Made by a program: the position numbers and the translations under genes. 64,000 nucleotides of DNA from Streptomyces rimosus (GTDB lineage: Bacteria; Actinomycetota; Actinomycetes; Streptomycetales; Streptomycetaceae): the NCBI RefSeq assembly GCF_008704655.1, contig NZ_CP023688.1, positions 6,067,501 to 6,131,500 of the forward strand. The letters are read 5' to 3'. Below are positions 3,559 through 49,730 of this stretch, piece after piece (position 1 is the first letter of the stretch; each line of letters begins with the position of its first letter). The notes under the pieces were generated by a model that was given only the letters and a program-made list of their open reading frames with translations, made no database searches and had not been told where the DNA came from.

Positions 3559-3907
3559 CGATGGAATAACTCACCGGATCCGTGCAACCGTTCCCGGGCC
3601 GGGTGGGTCGTACATGTCGTCAGGCTCCCAGGGGAGAGGGAACCGGGGGGATCCGAGGGGGGATCAGGGGGCCGAACGGAGGGGGAATCGAGGGGTCCGG
3701 GTGCCAGAACCGGGCCCCTCGAAGTGTCCGCCGCGACGGTCGTCATCAAGGGCGCCGAGTCAGGCGCCGAGGCACTCGCCACGACACCCTCGCAAGCTGT
3801 GCAGCGCGCCCGCGGCGGACCCCGCCGCAAAGCCTCCGCAGCCAGCTCCGACGCGAGTTATCCACAGGCCCGAACGCGATGTCGGACCCTGGCGGTACGG
3901 TCGGTTC
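3559..3907. other. intergenic region with G-tract cluster
   Basis: No convincing gene. The plus strand between about 3631 and 3701 has eight runs of three to six G separated by short spacers, including two copies of GGGGGGATC. This could form G-quadruplexes or act as a purine-rich regulatory tract. The 3' part holds a DnaA-box-like sequence and presumably the recD2 promoter. Confidence 0.6.
3858..3866 (+). promoter_or_regulatory. DnaA-box-like sequence upstream of recD2
   Basis: TTATCCACA matches the classical DnaA box exactly and lies 42 bp upstream of the recD2 start. A single box may be a regulatory DnaA site or chance; function is inferred only. Confidence 0.4.
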
Positions 3908-6175
3908 ATGTTCAATGCAGCCGTGGTCGAAGGGGTCCTGGAGCGGATCACCTACGCCAATGAGGAGACCGGTTACACGGTTGCGCGTCTGGACACGGGC
4001 AACTCCGGTGACCTCCTCACTGTCGTCGGGTCGCTGCTGGGCGCACAGCCGGGGGAGTCGCTGCGTCTGGAGGGCCGTTGGGGCTCCCACCCGCAGTACG
4101 GACGGCAGTTCACCGTCGAGAACTACACCACCGTCCTGCCCGCCACGATCCAGGGCATACGGCGCTACCTCGGCTCCGGCCTGATCAAGGGCATCGGCCC
4201 GGTCATGGCCGACCGCATCGCCGAGTACTTCGGCCTGGACACACTCGACGTCATCGAGCAGGAGCCGAAGCGCCTCGTCGAGGTGCCCGGCCTCGGCCCG
4301 AAGCGTATGAAGCGGATCGCCGACGCCTGGGAAGAGCAGAAGGCGATCAAGGAGGTTATGGTCTTCCTCCAAGGGGTGGGCGTCTCCACCTCCATCGCGG
4401 TGCGCATCTACAAGAAGTACGGCGATGCCTCGATCTCCGTCGTCAAGAACGAGCCCTACCGCCTCGCCGCCGACGTGTGGGGCATCGGCTTCCTGACCGC
4501 CGACCGCATCGCCCAGGCCATCGGCATCCCGCAGGACAGCCCGGAGCGGGTCAAGGCGGGTCTGCAGTACGCCCTCTCGCAATCCACCGACCAGGGGCAC
4601 TGTTACCTCCCGGAGGAGGAACTGATCGCCGCCTCGGTCAAGTTGCTGCATGTCGACACAGGCCTGGTCATCGACTGCCTCGGGGAGCTGGCGGCGAATC
4701 CGGAGGGTGTGGTCCGCGAGACCGTGCCCGCCCCGGACGGCGGGGACCCCATCACCGCCGTCTACCTGGTCCCCTTCCACCGGGCCGAGACCTCCCTGGC
4801 CTCCCAACTGCTGCGGCTGCTGGGCACGAGCGAGGACCGGATGCCGTCGTTCCAGACCGTGCATTGGGACAAGGCGTTGGCCTGGCTCGCCGAGCGTACG
4901 AAGGCCAGCCTGGCGTCGGAGCAGGAGGCCGCCGTACGGCTGGCACTCACGGAGAAGGTCGCGGTGCTGACCGGCGGCCCGGGGTGCGGAAAGTCCTTCA
5001 CGGTCCGCTCGATCGTGGAGCTGGCCCGCGCCAAGAAGGCCAAGGTGGTCCTCGCGGCCCCCACCGGCCGGGCCGCCAAACGTCTCTCGGAGCTGACGGG
5101 CGTCGAGGCGTCCACGGTGCACCGGCTGCTGGAGCTCAAACCGGGCGGGGACGCCGCGTACGACAAGGACCGCCCGTTGGACGCCGACCTGGTCGTGGTC
5201 GACGAAGCGTCCATGCTCGACCTGCTGCTCGCCAACAAGCTGATCAAGGCGGTGCCGCCGGGCGCCCACCTCCTCCTGGTGGGAGACGTGGATCAGTTGC
5301 CCTCGGTGGGCGCGGGTGAGGTGCTGCGCGATCTGCTCGCCGAGCGCTGCCCGGTCCCGTCCGTACGGCTGACCCGGATCTTCCGCCAGGCCCAGCAGTC
5401 GGGCGTGGTCACGAACGCCCACCGCATCAACGTGGGTGTGCTGCCGATCACGGAGGGCATGACCGATTTCTACCTCTTCCCCGAGGAGGATTCCGAGGAG
5501 GCCGGGCGGGTCGCGGTCGATGTGGTGGCCCGCCGTATCCCGGCGAAGTTCGGCCTGGACCCGCGCCGGGACGTGCAGGTGCTCACTCCGATGCACCGTG
5601 GCCCGGCCGGTGCCGGCACGCTGAACGGACTCCTCCAGCAGGCCCTCACCCCGGCCCGGCCGGACGTGCCGGAGCGGCGTGTCGGCGGCCGGGTATTTCG
5701 GGTGGGCGACAAGGTGACGCAGATCCGCAACAACTATGAGAAGGGCGACAACGGCGTCTTCAACGGCACCGTCGGCGTCGTCACCAAGATCAACTCGGAT
5801 GAGCAGTGGCTGACGGTGCTCACGGACGAGGACGAGGAGATCTCCTACGATTTCGACGAGCTGGACGAGCTGGCTCACGCTTACGCGGTGACCATCCACC
5901 GCTCCCAGGGCAGCGAATATCCGGCGGTGGTGATTCCGGTCACCACCGGCGCATGGATGATGCTGCAGCGGAACCTGCTCTATACGGGTGTTACGCGGGC
6001 AAAGCGACTGGTGGTGCTGGTCGGCTCCCGTAAGGCTCTGGGGCAGGCTGTACGCACCGTATCCGCCGGGCGGAGGTGGACCGCGCTACGTCACCGACTC
6101 GCAGGCGCAGTGCGTGGTCACCTCTTCCCCAAACGGGGCGAAGGGGAGCAGGATGGGCAGCTGGAGCGGCACTGA
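3908..6175 (+). CDS. recD2: SF1B DNA helicase RecD2
   Basis: ATP-dependent 5'-3' DNA helicase of the RecD2 (RecD-like, not RecBCD-associated) family, 755 residues. The N-terminal region holds the helix-hairpin-helix repeats seen in RecD2 (SGLIKGIGPVMADRIAEYF, LVEVPGLGPKRMKRI, AADVWGIGFLTADRIA). The motor follows: Walker A GGPGCGKS (Lys362), Walker B VVVDEAS, a LVGDVDQLPSVG motif III, and motif VI YTGVTRAKRLVVLVG at the C-terminus. The ATG at 3908 is chosen because the family begins with a short OB-like segment (VEGVLERITYANEETGYTV). It acts in the cytoplasm in DNA repair. It is monocistronic and followed by the citrate synthase gene 115 bp downstream. Confidence 0.95.
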   Translation: MFNAAVVEGVLERITYANEETGYTVARLDTGNSGDLLTVVGSLLGAQPGESLRLEGRWGSHPQYGRQFTVENYTTVLPATIQGIRRYLGSGLIKGIGPVMADRIAEYFGLDTLDVIEQEPKRLVEVPGLGPKRMKRIADAWEEQKAIKEVMVFLQGVGVSTSIAVRIYKKYGDASISVVKNEPYRLAADVWGIGFLTADRIAQAIGIPQDSPERVKAGLQYALSQSTDQGHCYLPEEELIAASVKLLHVDTGLVIDCLGELAANPEGVVRETVPAPDGGDPITAVYLVPFHRAETSLASQLLRLLGTSEDRMPSFQTVHWDKALAWLAERTKASLASEQEAAVRLALTEKVAVLTGGPGCGKSFTVRSIVELARAKKAKVVLAAPTGRAAKRLSELTGVEASTVHRLLELKPGGDAAYDKDRPLDADLVVVDEASMLDLLLANKLIKAVPPGAHLLLVGDVDQLPSVGAGEVLRDLLAERCPVPSVRLTRIFRQAQQSGVVTNAHRINVGVLPITEGMTDFYLFPEEDSEEAGRVAVDVVARRIPAKFGLDPRRDVQVLTPMHRGPAGAGTLNGLLQQALTPARPDVPERRVGGRVFRVGDKVTQIRNNYEKGDNGVFNGTVGVVTKINSDEQWLTVLTDEDEEISYDFDELDELAHAYAVTIHRSQGSEYPAVVIPVTTGAWMMLQRNLLYTGVTRAKRLVVLVGSRKALGQAVRTVSAGRRWTALRHRLAGAVRGHLFPKRGEGEQDGQLERH

Positions 6176-6290
6176 GTGCCGCCTGGAGGCCCTATGGCCG
6201 ACCCCGAGTGCACAGGCAAGGTCCAAATGGGGGAAGGTATAGGCAGTCAGGGCACCTCGAAGAAGAGGCACAACGTCGGTGAGGGATGAC

Positions 6291-7580
6291 GTGAGCGACA
6301 ACTCTGTAGTACTGCGTTACGGGGACGGCGAATACAGCTACCCGGTCGTCGAGAGCAGCGTCGGCGACAAGGGCTTCGACATCTCGAAGCTGCGCGCCCA
6401 GACCGGTCTGGTGACCCTGGATTCCGGTTATGGCAACACTGCCGCGTACAAATCCGCGATCACCTATCTGGACGGTGAGAACGGGATCCTCCGGTACCGC
6501 GGCTACCCGATCGAGCAGCTCGCAGAGCGCAGCACGTTCGTCGAGACCGCCTACCTGCTGATCAACGGTGAGCTGCCCACCGTGGACCAGCTGGCGAACT
6601 TCAAGCAGGACATCACCTACCACACCCTGCTCCACGAGGACGTCAAGCGGTTCTTCGACGGCTTCCCGCGGGACGCCCACCCGATGGCGATGCTGTCCTC
6701 GGTGGTCAGCGCGCTGTCGACGTTCTACCAGGACAGCCACAACCCGTTCGACGAGCGGCAGCGCCACATCTCGACGATCCGGCTGCTGGCCAAGCTGCCG
6801 ACGATCGCGGCGTACGCGTACAAGAAGTCGGTCGGCCACCCGGTGGTCTACCCGCGCAACGACCTCGGCTACGTCGAGAACTTCCTGCGTATGACCTTCT
6901 CGGTGCCGGCCGCCGAGTACGAGCTCGACCCGGTCGTGGTCAGCGCCCTGGACAAGCTGCTGATCCTGCACGCGGACCACGAGCAGAACTGCTCGACCTC
7001 CACCGTGCGCCTGGTCGGCTCCTCGCAGGCGAACCTGTTCGCCTCGATCTCGGCCGGCATCAACGCGCTGTGGGGCCCGCTGCACGGCGGCGCCAACCAG
7101 TCCGTGCTGGAGATGCTGGAGGGCATCCAGCGCGACGGCGGCGACGTCGACTCCTTCATCCGCAAGGTGAAGAACAAGGAAGACGGCGTGAAGCTCATGG
7201 GCTTCGGGCACCGCGTCTACAAGAACTTCGACCCCCGGGCGAAGATCATCAAGGCGGCGGCGCACGACGTCCTCTCGGCGCTCGGCAAGTCCGACGAGCT
7301 GCTGGAGATCGCGCTCAAGCTGGAGGAGCACGCGCTGTCCGACGACTACTTCGTCGAGCGCAAGCTCTACCCGAACGTGGACTTCTACACCGGTCTGATC
7401 TACCGGGCCATGGGCTTCCCGACCGAGATGTTCACCGTGCTCTTCGCGCTCGGCCGGCTGCCCGGCTGGATCGCCCAGTGGCACGAGATGATCAAGGAGC
7501 CGGGTTCGCGTATCGGCCGCCCGCGCCAGATCTACACCGGCATCGTCGAGCGCGACTTCGTCCCGGTCGAGGAGCGCTGA
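6291..7580 (+). CDS. gltA: citrate synthase
   Basis: Condenses oxaloacetate and acetyl-CoA to citrate at the entry of the TCA cycle. The 429-residue protein is full length for a type II bacterial citrate synthase. The active-site segments are present: LILHADHEQN and WGPLHGGANQ (substrate His), MGFGHRVYKNFDPR (His/Arg) and KLYPNVDFYTG (catalytic Asp). Two in-frame GTG codons exist. GTG 6291 (MSDNSVVLRYGDGEY) is preferred because GAGGGA lies 4-5 nt upstream and known streptomycete homologues begin this way; GTG 6279 would add four residues. It is a single-gene unit with its own terminator downstream. Confidence 0.96.
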   Translation: MSDNSVVLRYGDGEYSYPVVESSVGDKGFDISKLRAQTGLVTLDSGYGNTAAYKSAITYLDGENGILRYRGYPIEQLAERSTFVETAYLLINGELPTVDQLANFKQDITYHTLLHEDVKRFFDGFPRDAHPMAMLSSVVSALSTFYQDSHNPFDERQRHISTIRLLAKLPTIAAYAYKKSVGHPVVYPRNDLGYVENFLRMTFSVPAAEYELDPVVVSALDKLLILHADHEQNCSTSTVRLVGSSQANLFASISAGINALWGPLHGGANQSVLEMLEGIQRDGGDVDSFIRKVKNKEDGVKLMGFGHRVYKNFDPRAKIIKAAAHDVLSALGKSDELLEIALKLEEHALSDDYFVERKLYPNVDFYTGLIYRAMGFPTEMFTVLFALGRLPGWIAQWHEMIKEPGSRIGRPRQIYTGIVERDFVPVEER

Positions 7581-7657
7581 GGCACTCCCGGGTTTCCGGG
7601 ACAGCAGTCGACCGGCCGGCCGCCCGCGTGGCGGCCCGAGCCGGTCCGCCCAGCAGA

Positions 7658-7706
7658 AAGCGCCCCGCCTCCAGATCCCCCCACGGGTCCGGAGCGCGGG
7701 GCGCTT
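7658..7706 (+). terminator. intrinsic terminator after citrate synthase
   Basis: AAGCGCCCCGC (7658-7668) pairs perfectly with GCGGGGCGCTT (7696-7706) across a 27-nt loop, about 80 bp after the gltA stop. There is no long T tract, as is usual in Streptomyces. Confidence 0.7.
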
Positions 7707-7925
7707 CCCTTGTTCCCCGGGTCGGATTCCCCCCACGGGATCCGTCCGGGCGCTTCATGGTGGTACCGCGATCTGCCGGGACGCGCACGTACGGGAGGGC
7801 CGCTCAAAGCTCCCCGGGCACGTCGCCCCGGCCACGCGTTGCCGGGCAAAGTCCCCCAAGACCAGCCTGGCCGTTGCGGTGCAAGCCCCGCCGAGGTGCC
7901 TGCACCGTCCGGTTAGACTCGCGAC

Positions 7926-8030
7926 CCCCCGCAATGGTTACGTTCCAATCGCTGTGATCTGGGTCTCTTGCCATAAGGGGGCGAATACGGTCAAGGGTCT
8001 CGATCTGGAGATCGAGACCCTTGAGTATGG
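7926..8030 (+). ncRNA. candidate small RNA downstream of citrate synthase
   Basis: A TAGACT hexamer at 7914-7919 resembles the HrdB -10 consensus and is followed about 70 nt later by a perfect hairpin (7991-8024). Together they could define a transcript of about 100 nt with no ORF. I recall that a small RNA beside the S. coelicolor citrate synthase gene (SCO2736) has been reported, but I cannot verify that it corresponds. The -35 region is poor and the boundaries are guesses. Confidence 0.35.
7991..8024. terminator. 16-bp-arm palindrome between gltA and copA
   Basis: TCAAGGGTCTCGATCT (7991-8006) and AGATCGAGACCCTTGA (8009-8024) are exact reverse complements separated by GG. As RNA either strand would fold into a stable hairpin, so it can act as a bidirectional terminator between convergent gltA and copA, or as the 3' end of a small RNA. 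A protein-binding site is the alternative. Confidence 0.55.
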
Positions 8031-8091
8031 GTGTTGTGTCAGATGTAGGGAAGTTGTGAAGGCGAAAAATTTTGCCGCCGCCTACATTTCG

Positions 8092-10389
8092 TCACCGGAA
8101 GCGCCGCAACCTGAGGCTGTTACTGACCACGAAGACCGAGGAGAAGGCCATAGCCGCCCCCGCGATCATCGGATTGAGCAGCCCGGCCGCCGCGAGCGGC
8201 ACCGCCGCGACGTTGTAGCCGAAGGCCCAGAAGAGATTTCCTTTGATCGTGGCGAGCGTCCGGCGGGCCAGCCGGATGGCGTCGGCCGCGACCCGCAGGT
8301 CACCGCGTACGAGGGTGAGGTCTCCGGCCTCCATGGCGGCGTCCGTACCGGTCCCCATCGCCAGCCCCAGGTCCGCGGCGGCCAGGGCGGCGGCATCGTT
8401 GACGCCGTCGCCGACCATCGCCACGCTGCGGCCTTCGCCCCGCAGCCGCTCGACGACCGCGACCTTGTCCTCCGGCAGCACTTCCGCGATCACCTCGTCG
8501 ATGTCGACCTCCGCCGCCACCGCATCGGCCACCGCTTTGTTGTCCCCTGTCAGCAGTACGGGAGAAAGCCCCAGCGCGCGCAGCCGGCGGACCGCCTCGG
8601 CGCTGCCCTCCTTGACGGTGTCGGCGACCGACAGCAGGCCGCGTGGCTGCCCGTCCCAGGCGACGAGCACCGCCGTCCGCCCCGCTGCTTCAGCGGCGTC
8701 CCTGGCGGCGGCCAGCGCCTCGGGCAGGCCTCCGGCCGTAAAAGTTTCCTCGGTCTCCTGGCGCAGCAGCCGCTCGCGCCCGACGAGGACGCTGTGGCCG
8801 TCCACCACGCCCCGTACGCCCAGACCCGCTACGTTCTCGAAGTTCTCCGGCTCCGGCAGCTCGCGCAAGCGCTCGCGGGCCCCTTCCGCGATGGCACGCG
8901 CGATCGGGTGCTCCGACGAGTGCTCCAGCGCGCCTGCCAGCCGAAGCAGATCCTCCTCGGCGACGCCCGGTGCCGGTACGGCCTCGTACAGGCTCATCCG
9001 GCCGGTGGTCACCGTGCCGGTCTTGTCCAGCACGACGGTATCGATGCGGCGAGTCGACTCCAGGACCTCAGGACCCTTGATCAGAATGCCGAGCTGCGCG
9101 CCGCGGCCCGTACCGACCATCAAGGCGGTCGGCGTCGCGAGACCGAGCGCGCAAGGACAAGCAATGATCAGTACGGCGACGGCGGCCGTGAAGGACGCGG
9201 TCGCATCGCCGGTCGCCAGCAGCCACCCGGCCAGCGTGCCGGCCGCGATCACCAGCACGACGGGCACGAACACGGCCGAGACCCGGTCGGCGAGCCGCTG
9301 CACACTGGCCTTGCCGCTCTGCGCCGCCTCGACCAGCGCGGCCATCCGCGCCAGCTGCGTGTCGCCGCCGACCCGGGACGCCTCGATCACCAACCGGCCG
9401 CTGGTGTTCACCGTCGCGCCCGTCACATCGTCACCGGGAGCCACGTCGACCGGCACCGATTCGCCGGTCAGCATCGAAGCGTCCACCGCGGCTCGGCCTT
9501 CGACGACCGTGCCGTCCGTGGCGATCTTCTCACCGGGGCGTACGACGAACCGGTCGCCGACAGCCAGCTGCTCCACGGGCACGCGGACCTCGCGCCCGTC
9601 CCGCAGCACCGCCACGTCCTTCGCGCCCAGCTCCAGCAGCGCTCGCAGCGCGGCGCCCGCCTTCCGCTTGGAACGGGCCTCCAGGTAACGGCCGAGCAGC
9701 AGGAATGCCGTCACACCGGCCGCGGCCTCCAGGTAGATGGCGGAGGAACCTTCGGTACGGGCCACGGTGAGGTCGAAACCGTGCCGCATACCGGGGCCAC
9801 CCGCGTCGCCGAAGAACAGCGCCCACAGCGACCAGCCGAAGGCGGCGAGCGTGCCGAGGGAGACCAGAGTGTCCATCGTGGCGGCGCCGTGCCGTAGATT
9901 CGTCCAGGTGGCCCGGTGGAAGGGGAACGCGCCCCAGACCACGACGGGCGCGGCCAGCGTCAGGCACAGCCACTGCCAGTTGTCGAACTGGAAGGAGGGC
10001 ACCATCGACAGCAGGACGACGGGAACGGCCAGGACCACGGATACGGTCAGCCGCTGGCGTAGCCCGGCCAACTCCCGGTCGTGGTCATCAGCGCCGTTCT
10101 CGGTGTCGGCTCTGTCGACGGCTTCGGGCGCGTTAGCGGGTGCTGTTCTCGCAGGCTCGGCCGGCGTCGGCCGCTGTGCCGTGTAGCCCGTCTTCTCGAC
10201 CGTCGCGATCAGGTCGTCCACGGACACCCCGTCGCCGTACTCGACCCGCGCCTTCTCGGTGGCGAAGTTCACGGTGGCGCTGACACCCGGCAACCGGTTC
10301 AGCTTCTTCTCCACGCGCGCCGCGCACGAGGCGCAGGTCATGCCGCCGATGGCGAGCTCGACCCGCGCCTGCGTGGTCGTACCGGTCAT
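8092..10389 (-). CDS. copA: copper-translocating P1B-type ATPase
   Basis: Membrane pump that exports Cu(I) at the expense of ATP, 765 residues. It has one N-terminal heavy-metal-associated domain (GGMTCASC, residues about 14-21). The P1B core follows: TGES actuator loop, transmembrane metal-site CPC motif at Cys411-Pro-Cys413 (IIACPCALG), phosphorylation motif DKTGT at Asp455, an HP motif (SSEHPIARA) and the hinge [10 protein letters not shown]. Seven to eight hydrophobic segments are visible, matching CopA. It lies 5 bp downstream of copZ on the same strand and is probably co-transcribed from the CsoR-type operator upstream of copZ. CPC with a single HMA domain fits Cu(I)/Ag(I) rather than Zn/Cd export. 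Confidence 0.95.
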
Positions 10390-40741: not shown

Positions 40742-40746
40742 GTCGT
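40742..40746 (+). repeat. left 5-bp target-site duplication of the Tn7-like element
   Basis: GTCGT immediately precedes the terminal TGT of the element and is repeated exactly after the right end (47445-47449). A 5-bp duplication is the hallmark of Tn7-type transposition. Confidence 0.8.
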
Positions 40747-40805
40747 TGTCCTATGACAACGCAGATTGAGCAGTGCCATCGAAGTTTGAGTGGTTCAGAT
40801 CACTC
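40747..40805 (+). repeat. transposon left end with two TnsB-type boxes
   Basis: The terminus TGTCCTATGACAACG is followed by a degenerate box (40753-40770) and a better one, GTGCCATCGAAGTTTGAG (40773-40790). The second box and the 15 bp after it match the internal end at 42,815 closely (GTGCCAYCGAAGTTYGAG, then TGG and TCACT). Confidence 0.75.
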
Positions 40806-40812
40806 ACCTGGT

Positions 40813-40992
40813 GGCGGCCACGAGATCCGCGACGAGGGCGTCGCCCGGCTCTCCCCGCTCAAGGACCGCAACCTCAACGTGCTCGGCCGCTACAGCTTCA
40901 CCGCCCAGGTTCCGGCAGGCGGGGCCTTGAGGCCGCTGCGCGCCCCGGAGGCACCCGGGCTCGACGAGGACGACGACGGCACCGAGGACTGA
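40813..40992 (+). pseudogene. Tn3-family transposase, C-terminal fragment
   Basis: The frame reads HEIRDEGVARLSPLKDRNLN, then VLGRYSFTAQVPAGG and ALRPLRAPEAP before an acidic tail and stop. This looks like the extreme C-terminus of Tn3-family TnpA (the LSP...LN..G.YSF...LRPLR pattern). The rest of the gene is gone: the sequence is cut by the left end of the Tn7-like element, so it has neither start nor catalytic core. It is a relic of an older mobile element now inside the transposon. Confidence 0.6.
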
Positions 40993-41200
40993 CCGTGATC
41001 GGTCGGGCCAGGATGATCGGGGTGTGTTCGCTGGGTGCGGGCGTGGAGTGGGTACCGCATCTGTCACGTAGAGGCCGGATTGACCGGAAAAGACGGACTG
41101 TGGGCGGTTCTTGTTCGCTCGGCAGCCCCTCGTCAGGGTGGTCCGAGAACTGTCGGGAATGGCGAGCAGGGAACAGGGGTAGACAGGGGCGACCTATCTC
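40993..41200. other. cargo intergenic region
   Basis: 208 bp between the Tn3 scrap and the LPMO-like gene. No gene is seen; it presumably holds the promoter of the next gene. Confidence 0.4.
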
Positions 41201-41680
41201 ATGACCCAGCAGGAGAGCCTGTGTCCGGATACATCACTGTCCCTCCCAGCCGCCAGGCCCGGGCGGCTGGGTGAAATCCCCGGTGTCGGAGACGTCCAGT
41301 ACGAGCCGCAGAGCGTCGAAGGCCCCAAGGGTTCCTTTCTCCCCAACGGGGACGGCGCCCGCTTTCCCGAGCTGAACGATGACAGCCTGTTCGCGGATCA
41401 TTTTTTCACGGTTCCGGCGGGTGTCCCCGAAATCGGTTTCACATGGACGCTCACGGCACCCCGCCGCACTTTGACGTGGGACTACGTCATGATCACGGCC
41501 GACAACACCGTGCTCGCCACGTTCGACAGCCACAACACGACCCCGCCGTACGTTGTGGAGCACATCGTTCCCCTTGGCGGGTTCACCGGCCGTCACACCG
41601 TCCTCGGGGTGTGGAACATCGGGGACACTCCGCACGCCTACTACTCGGCCGTCGACCTCCTCATCGAGCCAGGTGACTGA
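41201..41680 (+). CDS. small LPMO-like (AA10/chitin-binding type-3 fold) protein without signal peptide
   Basis: A 159-residue protein whose second half resembles the immunoglobulin-like core of AA10 lytic polysaccharide monooxygenases: EIGFTWTLTAPRRTLTWDYV, VLATFD, VVEHIVPLGGFTGRHTVLGV and WNIGDTPHAYYSAVDLLI match their TW.LTAPH.T..W.Y and ILGVWNI.DT.NAFY.AIDV pattern. However, there is no signal peptide and no mature N-terminal His, so the copper His-brace is missing. The protein is either non-catalytic (carbohydrate or other ligand binding) or unrelated in function. The start ATG lacks a strong ribosome-binding site. It is a cargo gene of the Tn7-like element. Confidence 0.55.
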   Translation: MTQQESLCPDTSLSLPAARPGRLGEIPGVGDVQYEPQSVEGPKGSFLPNGDGARFPELNDDSLFADHFFTVPAGVPEIGFTWTLTAPRRTLTWDYVMITADNTVLATFDSHNTTPPYVVEHIVPLGGFTGRHTVLGVWNIGDTPHAYYSAVDLLIEPGD

Positions 41681-41925
41681 GCCGTAAGAACCTGCTTGTG
41701 AGGCCGACATGCCAAGTGAGCCGGGCAGTCGGCCTGTATGCGGGTGGCCGTGCCCGGTGAGGTGGCGCCCGGAGGCATGACGTGGAAGGTGCCGTGTGGC
41801 TGGTTCGCGCTCCTGGAGGGGAGTAGTTTGGCGGTAGGTCAGCGCCTCGGCGGGTGGTATTCCACCCAGCCCCCGTAGCGTGCTTCCGGCCCCGGTTGCT
41901 GGCACCGTCCCGACCGGAGGCCGTC
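41681..41925. other. cargo intergenic region before the GAF-ANTAR gene
   Basis: 245 bp with no supported gene; it should include the promoter of the downstream regulator. Confidence 0.4.
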
Positions 41926-42726
41926 ATGACCAGTTCGCCTTTTCCCCCGCCGGATGATCCGTCTTCGTCGAACGGGCCGCCCCGGCTGCCGCGTGAGGCG
42001 CGGATCACCGCCGCGCTGATCGACCTGGCCGACACCCTGGTCGACGACTTCGACCCCGCCGAGTTCCTCTACCGCGTCGCCGAACACTGCATGGACCTGC
42101 TCGACATCGGCGACGCCGGTGTCATGCTCGCCGTGCCCGGCGGGCCGCTGCGCCTGGTCGCCGCCTCCTCCGAACGCGTGCGCCTGGTCGAACTCTTCGA
42201 ACTCGACGCCGCCGAAGGCCCCTGCTGCACCGCTTTCGACAAGGCCGTCCCCGTCGACCACACCTTCACCGCGTCACCTTCACCGCGCTGGCCACGCTTC
42301 AGTGCCCGCGCCCACCGCGCCGGCTACACCTCCGTGCACGCCACCCCGATCCGGCTGCGCCGCGACACCCTCGGCGTGCTGAACCTCTTCCGCCGCACGC
42401 CCGGCCCGCTGCTGGAAGCCGACCGGCACCTGGCCCGGGCCCTGGCGGACGCCACCGCCATCTCCCTGCTCCAGCAGACCACCCTCGACGAGCATCGCAC
42501 CGTCCGCGCCCAGCTCGAAAAGGCCCTGGACACCCGCACCGTCATCGAACAGGCCAAAGGTTTTCTGACCGCCCGCCACGAAACCGACCCCGACACCGCC
42601 TTCCACCGCCTGCGCGCCCACGCCCGCCACCACCACCTGCGCCTGGTCGACCTCGCCCGCGACATCGTCGACGGCACCACCACCCTGCCGCCCCCGGACA
42701 CCGACAAGGCCCCCACCCTGCCCTGA
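41926..42726 (+). CDS. GAF and ANTAR domain regulator (RNA-binding antiterminator)
   Basis: A 266-residue signalling protein. A GAF sensor domain spans about residues 30-185 (FLYRVAEHCMDLLDIGDAGV, DAAEGPCCTAFDKAVPVD, TSVHATPIRLRRDTLGVLNL). An ANTAR domain follows at about 190-250: LEKALDTRTVIEQAKGFLTA and ETDPDTAFHRLRAHARHHHL. ANTAR domains bind paired RNA hairpins and prevent termination. A 13-bp direct repeat (CACCTTCACCGCG, one base apart) inside the GAF coding sequence creates the ASPSPR loop and looks like a recent slippage event. GGAGG precedes the ATG. It is the last cargo gene before the internal left end of the transposon. Confidence 0.87.
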   Translation: MTSSPFPPPDDPSSSNGPPRLPREARITAALIDLADTLVDDFDPAEFLYRVAEHCMDLLDIGDAGVMLAVPGGPLRLVAASSERVRLVELFELDAAEGPCCTAFDKAVPVDHTFTASPSPRWPRFSARAHRAGYTSVHATPIRLRRDTLGVLNLFRRTPGPLLEADRHLARALADATAISLLQQTTLDEHRTVRAQLEKALDTRTVIEQAKGFLTARHETDPDTAFHRLRAHARHHHLRLVDLARDIVDGTTTLPPPDTDKAPTLP

Positions 42727-42808
42727 ATCCTGGGTGCCGGCATGGCTGCTCACGCGGCCTGGACGAGTTCGGCGGGCCGCGGTGCCGCTGCGGTGGGGTA
42801 GCAGTGGG

Positions 42809-42832
42809 TGTCCTGTGCCACCGAAGTTCGAG
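42809..42832 (+). repeat. internal second copy of the transposon left end
   Basis: TGTCCTGTGCCACCGAAGTT, then CGAG, matches the inverted right terminus in about 20 of 23 positions, better than the outer left terminus does. Its flank is GTGGG, which does not match the GTCGT duplication, so the last transposition did not use this end. It sits directly beyond the end of tniQ, where a minimal 4.6-kb element would end. Confidence 0.75.
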
Positions 42833-42841
42833 TGGCCTGGG

Positions 42842-43492
42842 TCACTGATCCATTCGGGCTGTTCTCCGTTCCAGGTCGAGTAGCCGAAAGCGTTGTTGGA
42901 GGGAGGAGACGGGGACCCAGGTGTCCTGGTTGTCGAAGAGGTCGTGCCATGCCTGATAAGCCGTCTTGCCCTGTTCGTGGTAACCAACGAGCTGGGAGTA
43001 GAGGCGCTCAGAGAGCGTTGACCTTGCAGAGGTCCGCTCGGGGAAGTGGGGGCTGAGGATTCTCCTGATGAGCCAGCGTGGCAGCCCCCACTTGTCCGCG
43101 ATCTGCCGCAGAGTGCCCTTGTTCCTGCGGGCGTCTTCCTTGATCTGTCCCACGATGTTGAACCCGTGGCTGCGGGCCTTGCTGGAAGCGGTTTGTTCGA
43201 TGCGAATAGTGGCCTTGGTGTGGATATACACCCGAGTGGGACGGGCCGGAGCGGTGTCCGCCAGCGTGTTCTTCAGAACGTCCGTGGTGCGTCCGCTCAG
43301 GGTGGCCAGCCTGTCCAGCTTCACCCTGCCGGTCTTGGTGTTCGACGGCATGGTGAGGATGCTGAGCAGGTAGCTGGGCTTGAGGTGGTTGGCGCGGGCG
43401 AGACGCTGAACGTAGTGGATGGTGGTCTCGCCGAGCCGGGGGCGGACGTTGATCGGCAGCGGGGCAAGCGGTCTGTTCGAGTGGTGATTCAC
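42842..43492 (-). CDS. tniQ: TniQ family target-selection protein (short TnsD-like)
   Basis: A 216-residue protein beginning with the TniQ zinc/helical module sequence PLPINVRPRLGETTIHYVQR LA..., equivalent to the 'P.R..PGE....+L.RLA..N' start of TniQ/TnsD. The rest includes LRQIADKWGLPRWLIRRIL, a likely helix-turn-helix, and an Arg-rich tail. At 216 residues it is much shorter than Tn7 TnsD (about 500), so it lacks most of the DNA-recognition region and may act as an adaptor. The GTG overlaps the tniB stop (GTGA). Confidence 0.75.
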   Translation of the reverse strand: MNHHSNRPLAPLPINVRPRLGETTIHYVQRLARANHLKPSYLLSILTMPSNTKTGRVKLDRLATLSGRTTDVLKNTLADTAPARPTRVYIHTKATIRIEQTASSKARSHGFNIVGQIKEDARRNKGTLRQIADKWGLPRWLIRRILSPHFPERTSARSTLSERLYSQLVGYHEQGKTAYQAWHDLFDNQDTWVPVSSLQQRFRLLDLERRTARMDQ

Positions 43493-44544
43493 CGGCGGAC
43501 CTTGATGGGGCTGTGGGCCAGGGACTGCGCGGAGTGGTCCAGCGGGATGGCCGCGAGAGAGTCTTTGGTGATGGCTTCGCTGCCGGTGAGGATGGCGTCG
43601 ATCGCGGCTCCGCGGATCGCGTGGGACAGGGCACCGATCATGCCGCCGGTCCGGTCGTGCAGGTAGCGGTCCAGGCGGGCGAGAGTGCCGGGCGTGTGGT
43701 GGTGCAGGAGAAGGGTGCTTTCCAGCGTGGCGATCAGGCCCTGCCATTCCGTGTTGTAGGGGAACGGGGTGGTGGGGATGAGCGTGAACCGGCCGGCGAT
43801 CTGCTGGCCGCGGGTCCCGGACAGCAGGTTGGAGTTTTCGATGTCGATGCCCGCGTAGATGAACGTCGCCGGGATCCGCTCCGAGAAGTACTTCAGGGTG
43901 TCGGCGACTTCGGCCCCCGTGCGGCTGGTGAGGGAGACGTTGTGGAGTTCGTCGACCAGGACCAGTCCGGTACGGGTGTCGGTGCAGACGCCGACGACGG
44001 CCTCGATGATGTCGGTGATGTTGGAACTGCGGCGGACCGGCAGCCCGAGGAAGCGGGCGAACTCGGCCGCGACCATGCGGGCGGTCGCGGCAGGCGGGAC
44101 GGTGATGTAAACGACCGGGATGCGGTCGGTGGCGTGCGGGTGGCGGGCCTGGTCGAGAAGTTCGTGGGCCCGGCCGAGCTGGGTGATGGCGATGGTCTTG
44201 CCGGTGCCGGCGGGGCCGGACACGATCAGGCCGCGGCGGGCGCTGATCGCATGCTTGTTGAGCAGGACCAGCCGGCGGCCGCAGGTGACGGTGTGGCGGA
44301 CTGCGGAAGTGGCGACCACCCGCAGCCGGGCATGATGGTCGAGCCGATTCTCGTCGTAGATCTGCCGCTCCAGCGGTTCCAGCCGTTCGTACTTCTCCGC
44401 GCTCAGCAGCGCGGGCGGTGCGGGCGCGTCAGCGGTGAAGCGGCGCCATCCCTGCCGAGTGGTCAGCTGGAACCCGGCCTGATCGTCCGCCGTGTTCACG
44501 GCGGCGTCGGCTATGTGGCCGGCAGAGGTCACGAGCGTCTCCAT
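43489..44544 (-). CDS. tniB: TniB/TnsC-like AAA+ ATPase of the transposon
   Basis: A 351-residue AAA+ regulator that links target recognition to the transposase. It has Walker A GPAGTGKT (Lys116), sensor and strand segments IPVVYITVPPAATARMVAAE, Walker B VLVDELHN, and the AAA+ body PATFIYAGIDIENSNLL. A leading region (residues 1-90) precedes the ATPase, as in TniB/TnsC. The start overlaps the 3' end of tniA by 16 bp and its stop overlaps tniQ. It would polymerise on target DNA and recruit the transposase, by analogy with TnsC/MuB. Confidence 0.9.
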   Translation of the reverse strand: METLVTSAGHIADAAVNTADDQAGFQLTTRQGWRRFTADAPAPPALLSAEKYERLEPLERQIYDENRLDHHARLRVVATSAVRHTVTCGRRLVLLNKHAISARRGLIVSGPAGTGKTIAITQLGRAHELLDQARHPHATDRIPVVYITVPPAATARMVAAEFARFLGLPVRRSSNITDIIEAVVGVCTDTRTGLVLVDELHNVSLTSRTGAEVADTLKYFSERIPATFIYAGIDIENSNLLSGTRGQQIAGRFTLIPTTPFPYNTEWQGLIATLESTLLLHHHTPGTLARLDRYLHDRTGGMIGALSHAIRGAAIDAILTGSEAITKDSLAAIPLDHSAQSLAHSPIKVRR

Positions 44545-46595
44545 GGATCTTCGAGTGGATTGAACAGTCCCAGCGGGATCACTTCGGCCAGCGGCTCGGT
44601 GTCCTCGCCGGGCGCCTGCGGGACGGCGGGCTCGGGCTCGGCCGGGGCCGCGGGGAGAGGAGCGGCGGGCCCGGCGGCGCGGGTGCGGGCGGTGACCCGC
44701 TTGTCGCGAGCGGTCCGCTTCGGTTTCGCCTGCTGGCCGGGGCCGGCATGGGCCTTGGCCAGCAGGGCGGCGACCGCGTTGGCGATCTCGGCCTCGGTCG
44801 CCTCGGGCAGGCCCTGGGAGGCGTGGTCCCAGGCCAGTTCACCGAAGGGGACCGGAACGCGGTGCAGATGCTTCCAGGTGGCCTCGATCCAGCCGCTGCC
44901 CGCGTGATGGTCGCGTACCCAGATCCGGGAGACGTCGTAGGGATCGTGGTGGACCTCCCACAGCCCCTTCTTCTCCTTGATGCCGGAGTGCTGGCGGCGC
45001 AGGCCGGCCAGGGCCGGGCTGTCGTAGGTGCGGCGCTTGATTGTGACGCCGTAGTCGTTGACCGCCCGCCAAAGCGAGGGCAGCAGTTCGACGTAGTCGT
45101 CGCCGCTGAGCGCGACCGGGACGTAGCCGCAGGCTTCGACCAGTGCGGCGTACTTCTCGTTGGGCGTGAACGACCGGCCCGGGCTGACTGGGTCCCGCAG
45201 CCCGTCGTGCGGGCGGTTCTGCCAGTGGGCAACGATCCACTCGTCCAGGAGTTCCTGCAGTTCCAGCAGGGACCACAGAGGCTGCTGTTCCAAGTGCCGA
45301 CCGCGATGCTCGGTCGTATTGCCGGTGAAGCCGGGCAGGAACTGGGTGAACAGGGTGCCCACGGAGGCGAGCGTTTTCTCGATCGTGCCCTTCTCGAAGG
45401 GCGAGCCCTTATGCGCGGGCTGGAGATCGATCTGAAGGAAGCGGCAGGACGCGAGGAAGTTGCGGGACATGAACGCCTTGCCGTGGTCACAGACGATCAT
45501 TTCGGGGACGATCACCGGCCGGGCAGCGGCGTGCTCCAGGCGCTCGTCCAGGGGCAGCAGCCGCCGGTGCGGCAGCACCGAGCGGGACATCCGCAGGGCG
45601 TCGACCCAGCCCGGCCGCATCAGTTCCGGGGTGACCGTGCGAGCCAGCAGCACACTGGCGTCGACCGCCTTCGTCGTGGGCCGCAGCACCGCCGCGGTCA
45701 CCGTCCTGGTCGCGACGTCGACCATGCCGGTCAGCTCGACGGTGCCGGCCACTCCGTCGTCCAGGCGAACCAGCACGTCCAGCGGGGTGGAGTCGATCTG
45801 CATCACCTCGCCCGGCGCGAACGCGGGCAACTCGCCGAACGGAGCGGTCGCCCCATGAGCCCGTGATCTGCGGGTTTTCGCCGAGCCGGTGGTGTGGGTG
45901 CCAGTGGTGAGCTTGTCCAGCAGCCGGTAAAGCGTGCGGCGTGAGGGCAGCTTCGTCTCCTGGCCGGATTCATCGGCTTTGAGGATCTGCTCGGTCCGCC
46001 AGAGCAGGAAGGTGCCGGTGCGGGTCGAGGCGTCGGTGGCCTCGCTGATCGCCTGGCGCATCGCGTCCACCACCGCGTCGTCCACCGCGCCGTACCGTGG
46101 CGTCCTGCGGACCGGCCGGTGATCGGCCAGACCGATGACCCCGTCCTTTTCGTAGCGGCGCCGGTAGTTTGCAACGGTGCCCGCGGTCACCTTGTGCCCC
46201 TCCCCGGTGAGTTCGGCAGCTTTCGCACGCTCGCGTGCGGTCAGCGAACGCGACGGGGCGTACTGAGGCTTCGGCTCCGTGCCCGCATCCGCGTCCGGAG
46301 GCAGGCCATGCAGGACCTCCAGGATGTGGCCCTCCCACCACAGGGCCTTCTCCAGCACCGCTTGCGGCAGCGTCTCCAGCAGGGACACCGGCGGCAGCGG
46401 CCTCCGTCCCGAGCTGTCCACGACCTCGAACTGACCGTCGGCGAACAGCACAGCCGGCGGAACAGCCCGCGGTGTGCCGCCCAGGTCCGACAGCGTCACC
46501 GACCGGCCCGAAACCGCCAGGACCAGACGGACCTGTCCGTCGAACCGCACCCGTTCCCCGACCGCCAGGCCCTCCGGCCGCTTGAGCCGTCCCAT
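44529..46595 (-). CDS. tniA: TniA/TnsB-like DDE transposase (Mu transposase/integrase core)
   Basis: A 688-residue transposase that binds the end boxes and joins 3' ends to the target. Two N-terminal HTH regions are visible (LTARERAKAAELTGEGHKVTA, VANYRRRYEKDGVIGLADHR). The catalytic RNase H core has Asp268 (MQIDSTPLD), Asp370 (IVCDHGKAF) and Glu406 (KGTIEKTLAS), i.e. the D-D-35-E spacing of this superfamily, so it should be active. A beta-barrel and a C-terminal Pro/Ala-rich tail follow, probably the TnsC/TniB contact. The ATG at 46595 overlaps the tnsA stop (ATGA). Confidence 0.93.
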   Translation of the reverse strand: MGRLKRPEGLAVGERVRFDGQVRLVLAVSGRSVTLSDLGGTPRAVPPAVLFADGQFEVVDSSGRRPLPPVSLLETLPQAVLEKALWWEGHILEVLHGLPPDADAGTEPKPQYAPSRSLTARERAKAAELTGEGHKVTAGTVANYRRRYEKDGVIGLADHRPVRRTPRYGAVDDAVVDAMRQAISEATDASTRTGTFLLWRTEQILKADESGQETKLPSRRTLYRLLDKLTTGTHTTGSAKTRRSRAHGATAPFGELPAFAPGEVMQIDSTPLDVLVRLDDGVAGTVELTGMVDVATRTVTAAVLRPTTKAVDASVLLARTVTPELMRPGWVDALRMSRSVLPHRRLLPLDERLEHAAARPVIVPEMIVCDHGKAFMSRNFLASCRFLQIDLQPAHKGSPFEKGTIEKTLASVGTLFTQFLPGFTGNTTEHRGRHLEQQPLWSLLELQELLDEWIVAHWQNRPHDGLRDPVSPGRSFTPNEKYAALVEACGYVPVALSGDDYVELLPSLWRAVNDYGVTIKRRTYDSPALAGLRRQHSGIKEKKGLWEVHHDPYDVSRIWVRDHHAGSGWIEATWKHLHRVPVPFGELAWDHASQGLPEATEAEIANAVAALLAKAHAGPGQQAKPKRTARDKRVTARTRAAGPAAPLPAAPAEPEPAVPQAPGEDTEPLAEVIPLGLFNPLEDPWRRS

Positions 46596-47344
46596 CACTG
46601 CCCCCTTGCCGTGTGGACCACGGAGTCGGAACCCAACAGCCGCGAGATCATGTCCGTCACCAGGGCGCCGGACCACAGCAGATGGAACAGCACCGGCAAG
46701 ACCACCAGCGGATCACCCGCCACCGCGGCCCCGGAACGCAACGGCTGCGGCTCGCTGAAGACCTCCAGCAGCCGACCGGCGACGTCCTGGCGCAGGCACC
46801 GCCGTCGGCGATAGCGCGACAGCCACCGCATGTTCGCCATCGGCACCGGATCCGCGACCCCGGCCCGGACAAACTCCCAGCCCACCGCCCGGCAGGCCCG
46901 CTCCGTTGCCGCGAACGCCTCCGCCGCCGCCTCATCGACACGATCGGCGGCCCTGACATCCACCACCCGGCCCTGCCCGTTCGCAAGGCGTACGAAGTAG
47001 TCAGGAGCGTGCCGGCGCCGCCGGCCGTCGTGCCAGTGCAGCCAGAACGGCTGCGACGCGATCCCCGTCACCTGCGGATCGGCATCCAGGAGGATCAGCC
47101 GGTCCCGCTCCAGCCACGACTCGTAGCCGATGTGCTCACCCGTGGTCGCGCAGAAGTACCAACCCGCAAAGCTCCTCCCGCCCTGGGGCCAGCGGAACGG
47201 ACGCACCGGCGCCGCCCGCTCGAAACGGACGCCCCAGCAAGCCGCAAGCGACCGCCTGACCCGTACACCATCCTCCAAGAACCCCAGGTCAAACGCCCCA
47301 AGGTCTGGATCTGCGTACGCGTCCGCAAGCTCCCCCACCGCCAC
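46595..47344 (-). CDS. tnsA: TnsA-like endonuclease
   Basis: A 249-residue restriction-endonuclease-fold protein that would cut the 5' ends of the element, allowing cut-and-paste transposition. The catalytic pattern is present: Glu75 (GYESWLERD), Asp115 (HAPDYFVRLA) and a final VVDVRA strand where Arg131 occupies the place of the usual Lys (Tn7 has Q-x-K). The Lys-to-Arg change is unusual but conservative. It is the first gene from the right end, as in Tn7, and is overlapped by tniA. Together with TniA it forms a heteromeric TnsAB-type transposase. Confidence 0.82.
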   Translation of the reverse strand: MAVGELADAYADPDLGAFDLGFLEDGVRVRRSLAACWGVRFERAAPVRPFRWPQGGRSFAGWYFCATTGEHIGYESWLERDRLILLDADPQVTGIASQPFWLHWHDGRRRRHAPDYFVRLANGQGRVVDVRAADRVDEAAAEAFAATERACRAVGWEFVRAGVADPVPMANMRWLSRYRRRRCLRQDVAGRLLEVFSEPQPLRSGAAVAGDPLVVLPVLFHLLWSGALVTDMISRLLGSDSVVHTARGQ

Positions 47345-47368
47345 CCCTGATCACCAGCACCCCATGCC

Positions 47369-47444
47369 GATCAAACTTCGATGGCACGAACTTACTGATG
47401 ATCAACCTTCGGTGGCAAAGATCAAACTTCGGTGACACGGGACA
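47369..47444 (-). repeat. transposon right end with three TnsB-type boxes
   Basis: Three 20-bp boxes: GATCAAACTTCGATGGCACG (47369-47388), GATCAACCTTCGGTGGCAAA (47400-47419) and GATCAAACTTCGGTGACACG (47420-47439), the last two abutting, followed by the terminal GGACA. Starts are 31 and 20 bp apart. This is typical Tn7R architecture. Confidence 0.85.
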
Positions 47445-47449
47445 GTCGT
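47445..47449 (+). repeat. right 5-bp target-site duplication
   Basis: GTCGT, identical to 40742-40746, one base before the TetR stop codon on the minus strand. Confidence 0.8.
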
Positions 47450-47450
47450 C

Positions 47451-48323
47451 TCAGGGAGTGCCGGACACTGATCCGGGCTCGGCCTCGGGGCGCTGCGCCG
47501 CTCGACGGGTCATGAAACTCTCCAGGCCGTCGAAGATCCGCTCCAGGCCGAATTCGAGTGCCTGGTCGTGGGAGTCGTCGGCCGCTGCCGACGCGACGGC
47601 GGCGGTGAGTGCGGGGTAGCGGTCGGAACGGCCGGCGAGGAGTTCGTTCAGCGCCGCGCTCATGACCTGCTCGGGGCTCTTTGTCCGCGTACTGCCCACG
47701 CCCATGGACGCGGCGACCTGGGCCAGGGTGCGGATGTGGCCGTTGATCACGACCACGGCGTCCAGCTTCTCGGCCCCGTCCAGGCCGGTGTCGGCGAGAG
47801 CGGCGAGTGCGCTCTCCACCCAGCCGAGCTCGTTGGGGCCCATGACGCGGGAGCCCATCATCGCCGGCAGCAGCCAGGGGTGGCGGTGGAGGACGGCGGA
47901 CAGGCTGTCGGCCCATTCGCGCAGCGCGGGCCGCCAGTCCGAGTCGGTGCGCAGGGCGGGCGGCTCGCCCATCGCGGTGTCGATCATGAGGGCGACCAGC
48001 TCGGTCTTGCCCGGGACGTAGCGGTAGAGGGACATCTTGGTGAAGTTCAGTTCGCCCGCGATCCGCTGCATGGAGACGGCCGCGAGCCCGCCCGCGTCGG
48101 CGAGCGCGATCGCCGTCCGCGTGATCCGGTCCAGGCTCAGCGCGGGCTTGGGGCCGCGGCTCGGCCGCCCGCGACCGCCCCACAGCAACTCGATGCTTCC
48201 CGCCTGCTCGGCGAACACATCGGCCGCCACCTCCGGGACCTGCCCGGACCGCCCACTGCTCTCCTCGGCGTCCCGGCTCTTCCGGCTCTTTTGGATCTTC
48301 TTGCTCGTCCCGTCTTCGCCCAC
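47451..48323 (-). CDS. TetR-family transcriptional regulator
   Basis: A 290-residue repressor. The DNA-binding domain is at residues about 62-110: LDRITRTAIALADAGGLAAV, SMQRIAGELNFTKMSLYRYV, followed by the TetR C-terminal ligand/dimer domain of the TetR_C type (DWRPALREWADSL, HPWLLPAMMGSRVMGPNELGW). The first 60 residues are charged and probably disordered. The GTG at 48323 is the longest start, but its GGAG touches the codon, so a downstream start is possible. It is divergent from an FAD monooxygenase with two operator-like repeats between them, so it most likely represses that gene. The Tn7-like element ends 6 bp beyond its stop. Confidence 0.85.
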   Translation of the reverse strand: MGEDGTSKKIQKSRKSRDAEESSGRSGQVPEVAADVFAEQAGSIELLWGGRGRPSRGPKPALSLDRITRTAIALADAGGLAAVSMQRIAGELNFTKMSLYRYVPGKTELVALMIDTAMGEPPALRTDSDWRPALREWADSLSAVLHRHPWLLPAMMGSRVMGPNELGWVESALAALADTGLDGAEKLDAVVVINGHIRTLAQVAASMGVGSTRTKSPEQVMSAALNELLAGRSDRYPALTAAVASAAADDSHDQALEFGLERIFDGLESFMTRRAAQRPEAEPGSVSGTP

Positions 48324-48340
48324 CTCCGCATCCTAAAACT

Positions 48341-48377
48341 GTGTCCGGGGTATACAAAACAGTGTCCGGCGGATACA
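48341..48377. promoter_or_regulatory. twin TetR-type operators
   Basis: GTGTCCGGGGTATACA (48341-48356) and GTGTCCGGCGGATACA (48362-48377) agree in 14 of 16 positions, are imperfect palindromes (GTRTCC...GGATAC) and start 21 bp apart, two helical turns. They are flanked by AAAACTGT and ACAGTTTT. Confidence 0.7.
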
Positions 48378-48419
48378 GTTTTTTATGTCGCAGTGACGAC
48401 TCAACGTGGGGAGCGTGTG

Positions 48420-49730
48420 ATGGCGTACGAAACGACGTGCACGGTCGGCGGACCGACCGTGCTGATCTCGGGGGCTAGCGTCGCCGGCCCGGCCGTGGCG
48501 TACTGGCTCAGGCGCTACGGGTACCGCCCGACCGTGATCGAGATGGCCCCGGCGCTGCGCGGCGGTGGATTCGCGGTCGACTTCCGCGGCGGTGCGAGTC
48601 TGACGGTGCTGGAGCGGATGGGGGTGCTGGACGAGATCCGGCGGCATCGCACCGGCGGCAGCCCGATGAGCTTTATTGACGAGCGCGAACGTGAAATTGC
48701 CGCGCTACCACCGGAGTTCGCCGGAGGAGAAGTGGAGCTCCTCCGCTCCGACCTCTCTCACATCCTTTATGAGCACAGCTTGTACGGTCACGGTCACGGC
48801 CGCGCTGACGGGCCGGAGGACCGTGCTACCGAACCGCTCCCGGAGAAGGGAGGCGAAGCGGGTGCGCCGCTTGTCGAATACGTCTTCGGCGATTCCATAG
48901 CTTCCCTGACCGAGATGGCGGACGGTGTGCACGTCACCTTCGAACGGGAAGCCCCGCGCACATTCGACCTCGTGATCGGCGCGGACGGCCTGCACTCCAC
49001 CGTGCGGCGGCTCGCCTTTGGTCCGGAGGAAGAGTTCGTCAGCCACCTCGGCTACTACATAGCGGGCTGGGACCTACCGGCCGAGAGCAGAGATTTCGGA
49101 TCCCGGCCCGTGGGCTACAACGAGCCCGGCCGGTTCATCAGCGCGGGCCGTACGGCCAGGCGGGCGGACGAGCCGGGATATGCGGGCGAGACGTTCTGCG
49201 TCTTCGCCTCGGATGAGCTGACCTACGACCGACGGGACACGGAAAGACAGAAGAAGCTGATAGCCCGGGCGTACGAGGGAGGCGGCTGGCGGACGGAGGA
49301 ATTGGCGCAGACGGTATGGGGCGCTGACGGGCTCTATTTCGACTCCATCAGCCGGGTGGATGTTCCACGCTGGTCCACGGGCCGAATAGCCCTGCTCGGC
49401 GATGCGGCGTACGGCGCCACCGTCGGGGGCATGGGCACCGGGTCGGCCGTCGTGGGTGCGTACGTCCTCGCGGGCGAACTGGCGGCGGCCGGCGGTGACC
49501 ACGGCCGGGCGTTCGCGCGCTACGAGGAACTGCTGCGGCCTTTCGTCACACAGTGCCAGGAGGGCGGCCGCCGAGCCGGCGAATTCCTGGCCCCACCTAC
49601 CCAGGAGGCCATCGACGCCCGCAACGCCCTGCTGAACGATCCGCAGGCCGTAGCCGCGATGCTCCAAGAGGGCGAGGACATATCCGCAGCCGTTGAGCTG
49701 CGCACATATGGGGCCGACGAGCGGGGGTGA
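48420..49730 (+). CDS. FAD-dependent monooxygenase (PHBH/TetX-like)
   Basis: A 436-residue group A flavoprotein monooxygenase. The FAD-binding Rossmann segment VLISGASVAGPAVAYWLRR is at residues 14-32, the middle DLVIGADGLHSTVRRLAFG is the family DG motif, and RIALLGDAAYGATVGGMGTG is the GD motif. GASVAG replaces the usual GxGxxG, as in many actinomycete members related to tetracycline-inactivating and anthracycline hydroxylases. A His/Gly/Glu-rich insertion (YGHGHGRADGPEDRATEPLP) follows the SDLSHILYE helix. GGGGAG precedes the ATG. The divergent TetR gene and twin operators suggest induction by its aromatic substrate. Confidence 0.88.
   Translation: MAYETTCTVGGPTVLISGASVAGPAVAYWLRRYGYRPTVIEMAPALRGGGFAVDFRGGASLTVLERMGVLDEIRRHRTGGSPMSFIDEREREIAALPPEFAGGEVELLRSDLSHILYEHSLYGHGHGRADGPEDRATEPLPEKGGEAGAPLVEYVFGDSIASLTEMADGVHVTFEREAPRTFDLVIGADGLHSTVRRLAFGPEEEFVSHLGYYIAGWDLPAESRDFGSRPVGYNEPGRFISAGRTARRADEPGYAGETFCVFASDELTYDRRDTERQKKLIARAYEGGGWRTEELAQTVWGADGLYFDSISRVDVPRWSTGRIALLGDAAYGATVGGMGTGSAVVGAYVLAGELAAAGGDHGRAFARYEELLRPFVTQCQEGGRRAGEFLAPPTQEAIDARNALLNDPQAVAAMLQEGEDISAAVELRTYGADERG

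Follow-up and report, generated by a model that had tools for sequence, protein, structure and literature searches.

The window analysed here, a 64,000-nucleotide stretch at positions 6067501-6131500 of the single-contig, 9,361,154-bp genome of Streptomyces rimosus (G000), contains a 6,698-bp element which, with high confidence, is a Tn7-like transposon of the actinobacterial kind, intact, autonomous and very probably active. An earlier reading made from the letters of the window (the sequence-only reading) had proposed a complete Tn7-like transposon here, and this is borne out by the gene content, the structure of the ends, the 5-bp target duplication, an empty site and the TnsA fold. The parts of the element, in window coordinates, are as follows.

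40742-40746, no strand: target duplication, left copy GTCGT, found only once at the empty site of genome G036
40747-47444: Tn7-like element, 6,698 bp, with GTCGT on both sides
40747-40812, forward strand: left end, with TGTCCT and boxes at 40753-40771 and 40773-40791; the left end of locus L032 is very similar
42809-42833, forward strand: inner box of the left type that carries a TGTCC of its own, adjoining tniQ on the outside; its 5-mer, GTGGG, has no matching duplication
42842-43492, reverse strand: tniQ, 216 amino acids, target selector with a TniQ core and a predicted C-terminal double helix-turn-helix
43489-44544, reverse strand: tniB/tnsC, 351 amino acids, AAA+ ATPase with Walker A GPAGTGKT and Walker B LVLVDE
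44529-46595, reverse strand: tnsB/tniA, 688 amino acids from the ATG, DDE transposase with D268-D370-E406
46595-47344, reverse strand: tnsA, 249 amino acids, endonuclease of the TnsA fold in which Arg131 replaces Lys
47369-47444, reverse strand: right end, with the GGACA terminus and three boxes
47445-47449, no strand: target duplication, right copy GTCGT, 1 bp before the stop codon of a tetR-type gene

The termini, TGTCC from 40747 and GGACA ending at 47444, each lie directly inside a copy of GTCGT. The three right-end boxes (47420-47438, 47400-47418 and 47369-47387) share one consensus, and the outermost of the two left-end boxes is degenerate. The duplication, the termini and the five terminal boxes noted in the sequence-only reading were all located, but its list of boxes had missed the inner left-type box at 42809. 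Several boxes at each end, to which TnsB would bind, TGT...ACA termini and a 5-bp duplication are the end structure of Tn7-like transposons, and the chance of a matching 5-mer is about 0.002 (0.2%) per end pair in the local base composition. In G036 the two flanks are joined as CGGtGTCGTCTCAGGGAGcGCCGGA, with one GTCGT, no insert and collinear flanks. Such an empty site had been expected from the sequence-only reading, and its counter-case, collinear sequence without tns genes and with both borders kept, was examined in the same genome, which carries GTCGT once, as insertion predicts. When the joined flanks were searched in 392 genomes of the genus they lay side by side in at least three (G036, G048 and G353); the junction stretch is absent in G048 and too diverged in G353, so that the base-exact empty site comes from G036 alone. 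A survey of 81 loci, comprising 80 found with TnsB and the window, recognised both ends in 17, the window included, and 11 of these 17 carry an exact 5-bp repeat, with 0.05 expected.

The four core genes follow one another from the right end towards the left as tnsA, tnsB, tniB and tniQ, with overlaps of 1, 16 and 4 bases. The overlapping gene set and the triad D268-D370-E406 with its 35-residue D-E gap, as previously read, were confirmed in the translated frame (D271/D373/E409 in the 691-codon frame); the genes are present as listed, although the earlier naming mixes tns and tni. TnsB is a DDE transposase whose six matches in the PDB at an E-value of 0.01 are all TnsB or TnsAB, and weak. TniB matches PF05621 with 52.1 bits (cut-off 22.4) and carries Walker motifs, as expected of the AAA+ regulator, and TniQ represents the TniQ/TnsD target selector of Tn7-like transposons. 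TnsA scores 299.6 bits against NF033179 and its modelled fold matches that of Tn7 TnsA, in agreement with an endonuclease. The TnsA active site noticed earlier holds for E75, D115 and D129, but the position usually occupied by lysine is Arg131. This lysine-to-arginine variant predominates among the sequences compared: 100 TnsA sequences (window included, 93 distinct loci) show 97 Arg, two Cys and one gap at this position, and E75, D115, D129 and R131 are invariant in a 64-sequence alignment. TnsA-like genes are frequent in Streptomyces, occurring in 89 of 150 genomes (match at an E-value of 0.001, the window's own included), many of them distant or partial. No cas gene of a CRISPR-associated transposon was found among the seven open reading frames of the element searched with profiles, an array search not being made.

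In the mechanism proposed, TnsB would bind the boxes at both ends and, together with TnsA, cut the element out, with a presumed role for Arg131 in this cut-and-paste chemistry. The TniB/TnsC ATPase would connect the TnsA-TnsB end complex to TniQ, which would pick the target, perhaps alone and through its C-terminal double helix-turn-helix, and insertion would duplicate 5 bp.

The element is very probably active, since a published 6.7-kb segment matches it in size and place. PMC9045324 reports on a 6.7-kb segment, labelled 'TnsA-like and Mu transposase', in S. rimosus ATCC 10970. One chromosome assembly contains two copies of it, and in strain M4018 it has newly entered the giant linear plasmid, as seen in plasmid DNA purified by pulsed-field gel electrophoresis. 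The ATCC 10970/M4018 segment, 6,694-6,708 bp long, agrees with the present element in size, in its described genes and in its position on the chromosome, and the two are very probably the same. G000 contains one full copy, at 6108247-6114944 excluding the repeats. The published second copy is offset from it by 4,960-4,964 bp; the published assembly lacks 1,771 bp of the left telomere and would hold one extra 6.7-kb copy, from which about 4,932 bp is predicted. G000 is accordingly taken to be S. rimosus ATCC 10970 or a strain very close to it. The coordinates in the paper would put the insertion point of the 4.68-Mb copy near 4,681,931 in G000 (uncertainty at least 40 bp), between a putative PaaA open reading frame, identified by eye, and a divergent open reading frame; the paper is not fully clear as to the assemblies in which the 4.68-Mb section is missing. 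The copy differences and the plasmid insert strengthen what the sequence-only reading had called possibly active, and the element would appear to have jumped in laboratory lineages of S. rimosus.

Several observations weigh against an intact and active Tn7-like transposon. The rve and HTH_32 domains of TnsB score below their Pfam cut-offs, and TniQ, at 26.7, falls just under the gathering cut-off of 27. Six of the 17 loci with both ends recognised have no matching repeat (L032, L037, L048, L054, L058 and L065), some of which may reflect miscalled ends or rearrangement. Replacement of the catalytic lysine makes excision by TnsA less than certain, and the offset in coordinates exceeds its prediction by about 30 bp. 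It is nevertheless very improbable that the element is a decayed or immobile relic and that the published copy differences stem from assembly error or homologous recombination. S. rimosus genomes are described in PMC9045324 as hard to assemble, G000 holds a single full copy, and relics do occur in the family, as both relatives at recA, L057 and L058, are interrupted; in the window, however, all four genes are open and the ends and duplication are perfect, the plasmid insert came from purified plasmid DNA, and recombination between unrelated sites is not expected to yield a clean 6.7-kb insert. An element of the Tn5053/Tn402 type, forming replicative cointegrates with a TnsA made non-catalytic by loss of its lysine, is unlikely. 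The TniB and TniQ naming, the 5-bp duplication, the arginine in TnsA and the gain in copy number reported in PMC9045324 would fit it, but elements of that type carry TniR and res and no TnsA, whereas here TnsA is present and no resolvase was found among the open reading frames of the element searched with profiles. In the 4,507-bp relative L067 the four genes nearly fill the element and leave little room for a resolvase, and the retention of TnsA with its four invariant residues argues for a retained function. A gain in copy number is also expected of cut-and-paste transposition behind a replication fork, which counts against the replicative alternative.

It is distinctly unlikely that the functional element is a 4.6-kb core at 42809-47444, with the outer left end derived from a second element and the 6.7-kb unit a composite. 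The inner TGTCC and left-type box adjoin tniQ where the compact relatives L032 and L067 have their left end, and the 2-kb passenger segment contains a Tn3 fragment and a host-like gene, but the duplication and empty site fit the outer pair of ends only and the published mobile unit measures 6.7 kb; it is therefore the outer end pair that moves now. A composite origin may well be right as history, though not as present function, and a 4.6-kb element that gained a second, outer left end, and thereby 2 kb of passengers, is plausible. The inner left-type boxes are possibly the remnant of an ancestral left end. An extra left-type box also lies by tniQ in L058 (9292-9310), without a TGTCC of its own, unlike that of the window. 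Examination by eye of the left flank of L066 shows right-end-like boxes of a second copy directly adjoining the left end, which suggests a tandem insertion.

Directed target choice is clear in the relatives of the element, which recur at particular insertion sites; the window site is a single example. The outer flank of the right end was taken for 99 of the 106 loci with TnsA (window included), of which seven pairs proved to be duplicates of one locus, so that 92 distinct flanks remained, and site groups were defined by common flanking genes with duplicates removed. Insertions lie upstream of aconitase at eight distinct loci (L015, L040, L047, L055, L059, L063, identical to L012, L068, identical to L008, and L070; nine counting L074), drawn from more than one transposase clade, upstream of a PadR-family gene at eight, near an XRE-type regulator at seven (named by eye, and about 1 kb away in one example), next to one unnamed gene at six, before another helix-turn-helix gene at three and upstream of recA at two, with smaller groups in addition. 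Pfam confirms RecA, aconitase, PadR and the smaller helix-turn-helix group. A PadR gene stands on the left-end side in eight further loci (L048, L049, L050, L073, L081, L086, L094 and L108). Of the 99 flanks, 42 match no other, and one group of four consists of other transposon copies. The site shared by L067, L066 and L090 is occupied in L067 by a whole element with its duplication; as the four genes nearly fill this element, TniQ is the likely selector.

At recA, the right ends of L057 and L058 (the same locus as L003 of G010) lie 35 and 33 bp before a putative recA -35 hexamer and face the recA promoter, near which is a site that we take to be a LexA (SOS) box. The L057 element is interrupted by about 5.6 kb in tnsB (~3352-8954) and that of L058 by about 2.8 kb in tnsB (~3175-6018); in L187, on the same SM11 contig as the L057 element, about 5.2 kb interrupts tniB (~1229-6453). 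No report of recA or aconitase as targets of Tn7-like elements in Streptomyces was found in the titles and abstracts searched, and neither gene appears in the main text, supplements excluded, of PMC10293859 as far as it was accessible.

TniQ similarity appears, from sequence comparison, to track the target gene more than the transposase, which is the less known part of these results. A site label was given to 25 loci of the TnsB search (PadR-left, XRE and the smallest groups excluded), with a TniQ sequence for 20, and two classes with a common first 70-100 bp of flank were merged before a label-shuffle test. TniQ identity is 61% within against 29% between target classes (n = 20), compared with 79% against 67% for TnsB. 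Corrected for TnsB identity, the TniQ difference is 20 points, and in 20,000 shuffles of the labels no value as large arose, a shuffling that ignores relatedness. With the classes unmerged and the window as its own class, the TniQ means are 54% within and 33% between. L055 (aconitase) and L056 (PadR) share 83% identity in TnsB and 23% in TniQ, and the two aconitase loci L040 and L055 share 63% and 41%, respectively. Set against such a rule are L044 and L107, in the PadR class with TniQ proteins just 18-30% identical to the others, and the helix-turn-helix loci L034 and L039, which share only 30% TniQ identity; the window site, too, is not among the recurrent sites. The chances seem evenly balanced that one compact TniQ of about 216 amino acids reads the target by its C-terminal double helix-turn-helix alone in the four-gene Tn7-like elements of Streptomyces, that exchange of tniQ switches elements between fixed sites in the regions controlling housekeeping genes such as recA, aconitase and the PadR regulator, and that the element of S. 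rimosus belongs to this series as a living example which also reaches a giant linear plasmid.

The insertion in the window occupies the gap between two genes that converge on it, and a single base separates it from the stop codon of the tetR-type gene. This gene and the divergent FAD-binding monooxygenase (PF01494) beside it together take up 47451-49730. The closest TniQ relatives with known sites (at least 50%, 50-55% identical) are the independent loci L057 and L058 at recA. A recA rule was rejected for the window site, as the host's own recA lies at 2.545 Mb with an unoccupied promoter and the window gap is convergent; a tetR-type gene common to the flanks of the window and L021 was set aside as likely chance, such genes being abundant. 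The TniQ of the window either reads another sequence or is relaxed, and if the segment in PMC9045324 is this element, a single TniQ has been used for three sites or more. TniQ searches matched 11 of 392 genomes of the genus (E-value 1e-15) and 2 of 394 of the family (E-value 1e-25), the host's own included in both, and nine plasmid records (best 46%), and none of the three yielded a new site for the close TniQ group. TniQ relatives P0002 (73%, S. chrestomyceticus) and P0003-P0008 are known from proteins only.

Passengers fill the approximately 2 kb between tniQ and the left end.

40816-40992, forward strand: fragment from the C-terminal end of a Tn3-family transposase, sharing 83% identity with a sequence annotated as Tn3 family transposase (H53)
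41201-41680, forward strand: open reading frame of 159 amino acids, LPMO_10/GbpA-like, the GbpA match being far under the model cut-off
41854-42726, forward strand: GAF-ANTAR regulator, 290 amino acids from the first GTG, although the true start may be internal; a host paralogue 78% identical lies on the same chromosome (G000 702504-703336)

Excision, target choice and the unusual TnsA site can be tested directly in this small, intact element of four genes, for which the ends are mapped, an empty site is available and there is published evidence of movement; the host is very probably a non-pathogenic antibiotic producer of industrial importance. The less known features of the family, the repeated insertion of relatives upstream of recA, aconitase and a PadR gene and the swappable TniQ, provide a natural series on how a small TniQ reads DNA, and such elements are possible integration tools for GC-rich actinomycetes.

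Canonical Tn7 of E. coli is alike in the TnsA fold, the location of TnsA by the right end, the 5-bp duplication and the several boxes per end, but the present element has a 216-amino-acid TniQ for the larger TnsD, arginine for lysine in TnsA and no TnsE seen. Telomeric Tn7-like transposons of linear Streptomyces replicons were reportedly described in 2025; this element, in contrast, is situated 3.2 Mb inward of the nearer chromosome end, at position 6.11 Mb of 9.36 Mb. Distant TnsA relatives do occur close to the two ends of linear replicons, or in mirrored copies where two contigs begin (G117, G094, G098, G108 and G066), and these replicon-end relatives probably represent the telomeric class. 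Tn7706 of Rhodococcus erythropolis, according to PMC12915292, likewise carries tnsA, tnsB, tniB and tniQ, but is 19.4 kb in size with many passengers, and is multicopy and on plasmids; Rhodococcus plasmid relatives, not Tn7706 itself, are about 69% identical to the element in DNA. The accessible text of PMC9045324 names its segment just a TnsA-like/Mu-like transposase fragment and contains no occurrence of the word Tn7. The actinobacterial Tn7-like elements surveyed in PMC8649781, to which the S. rimosus element adds a new member, are alike in host group and in their tnsA-tnsB-tnsC-tniQ core; in 2021 that survey listed the actinobacteria-dominated clade as one without experimental characterisation.

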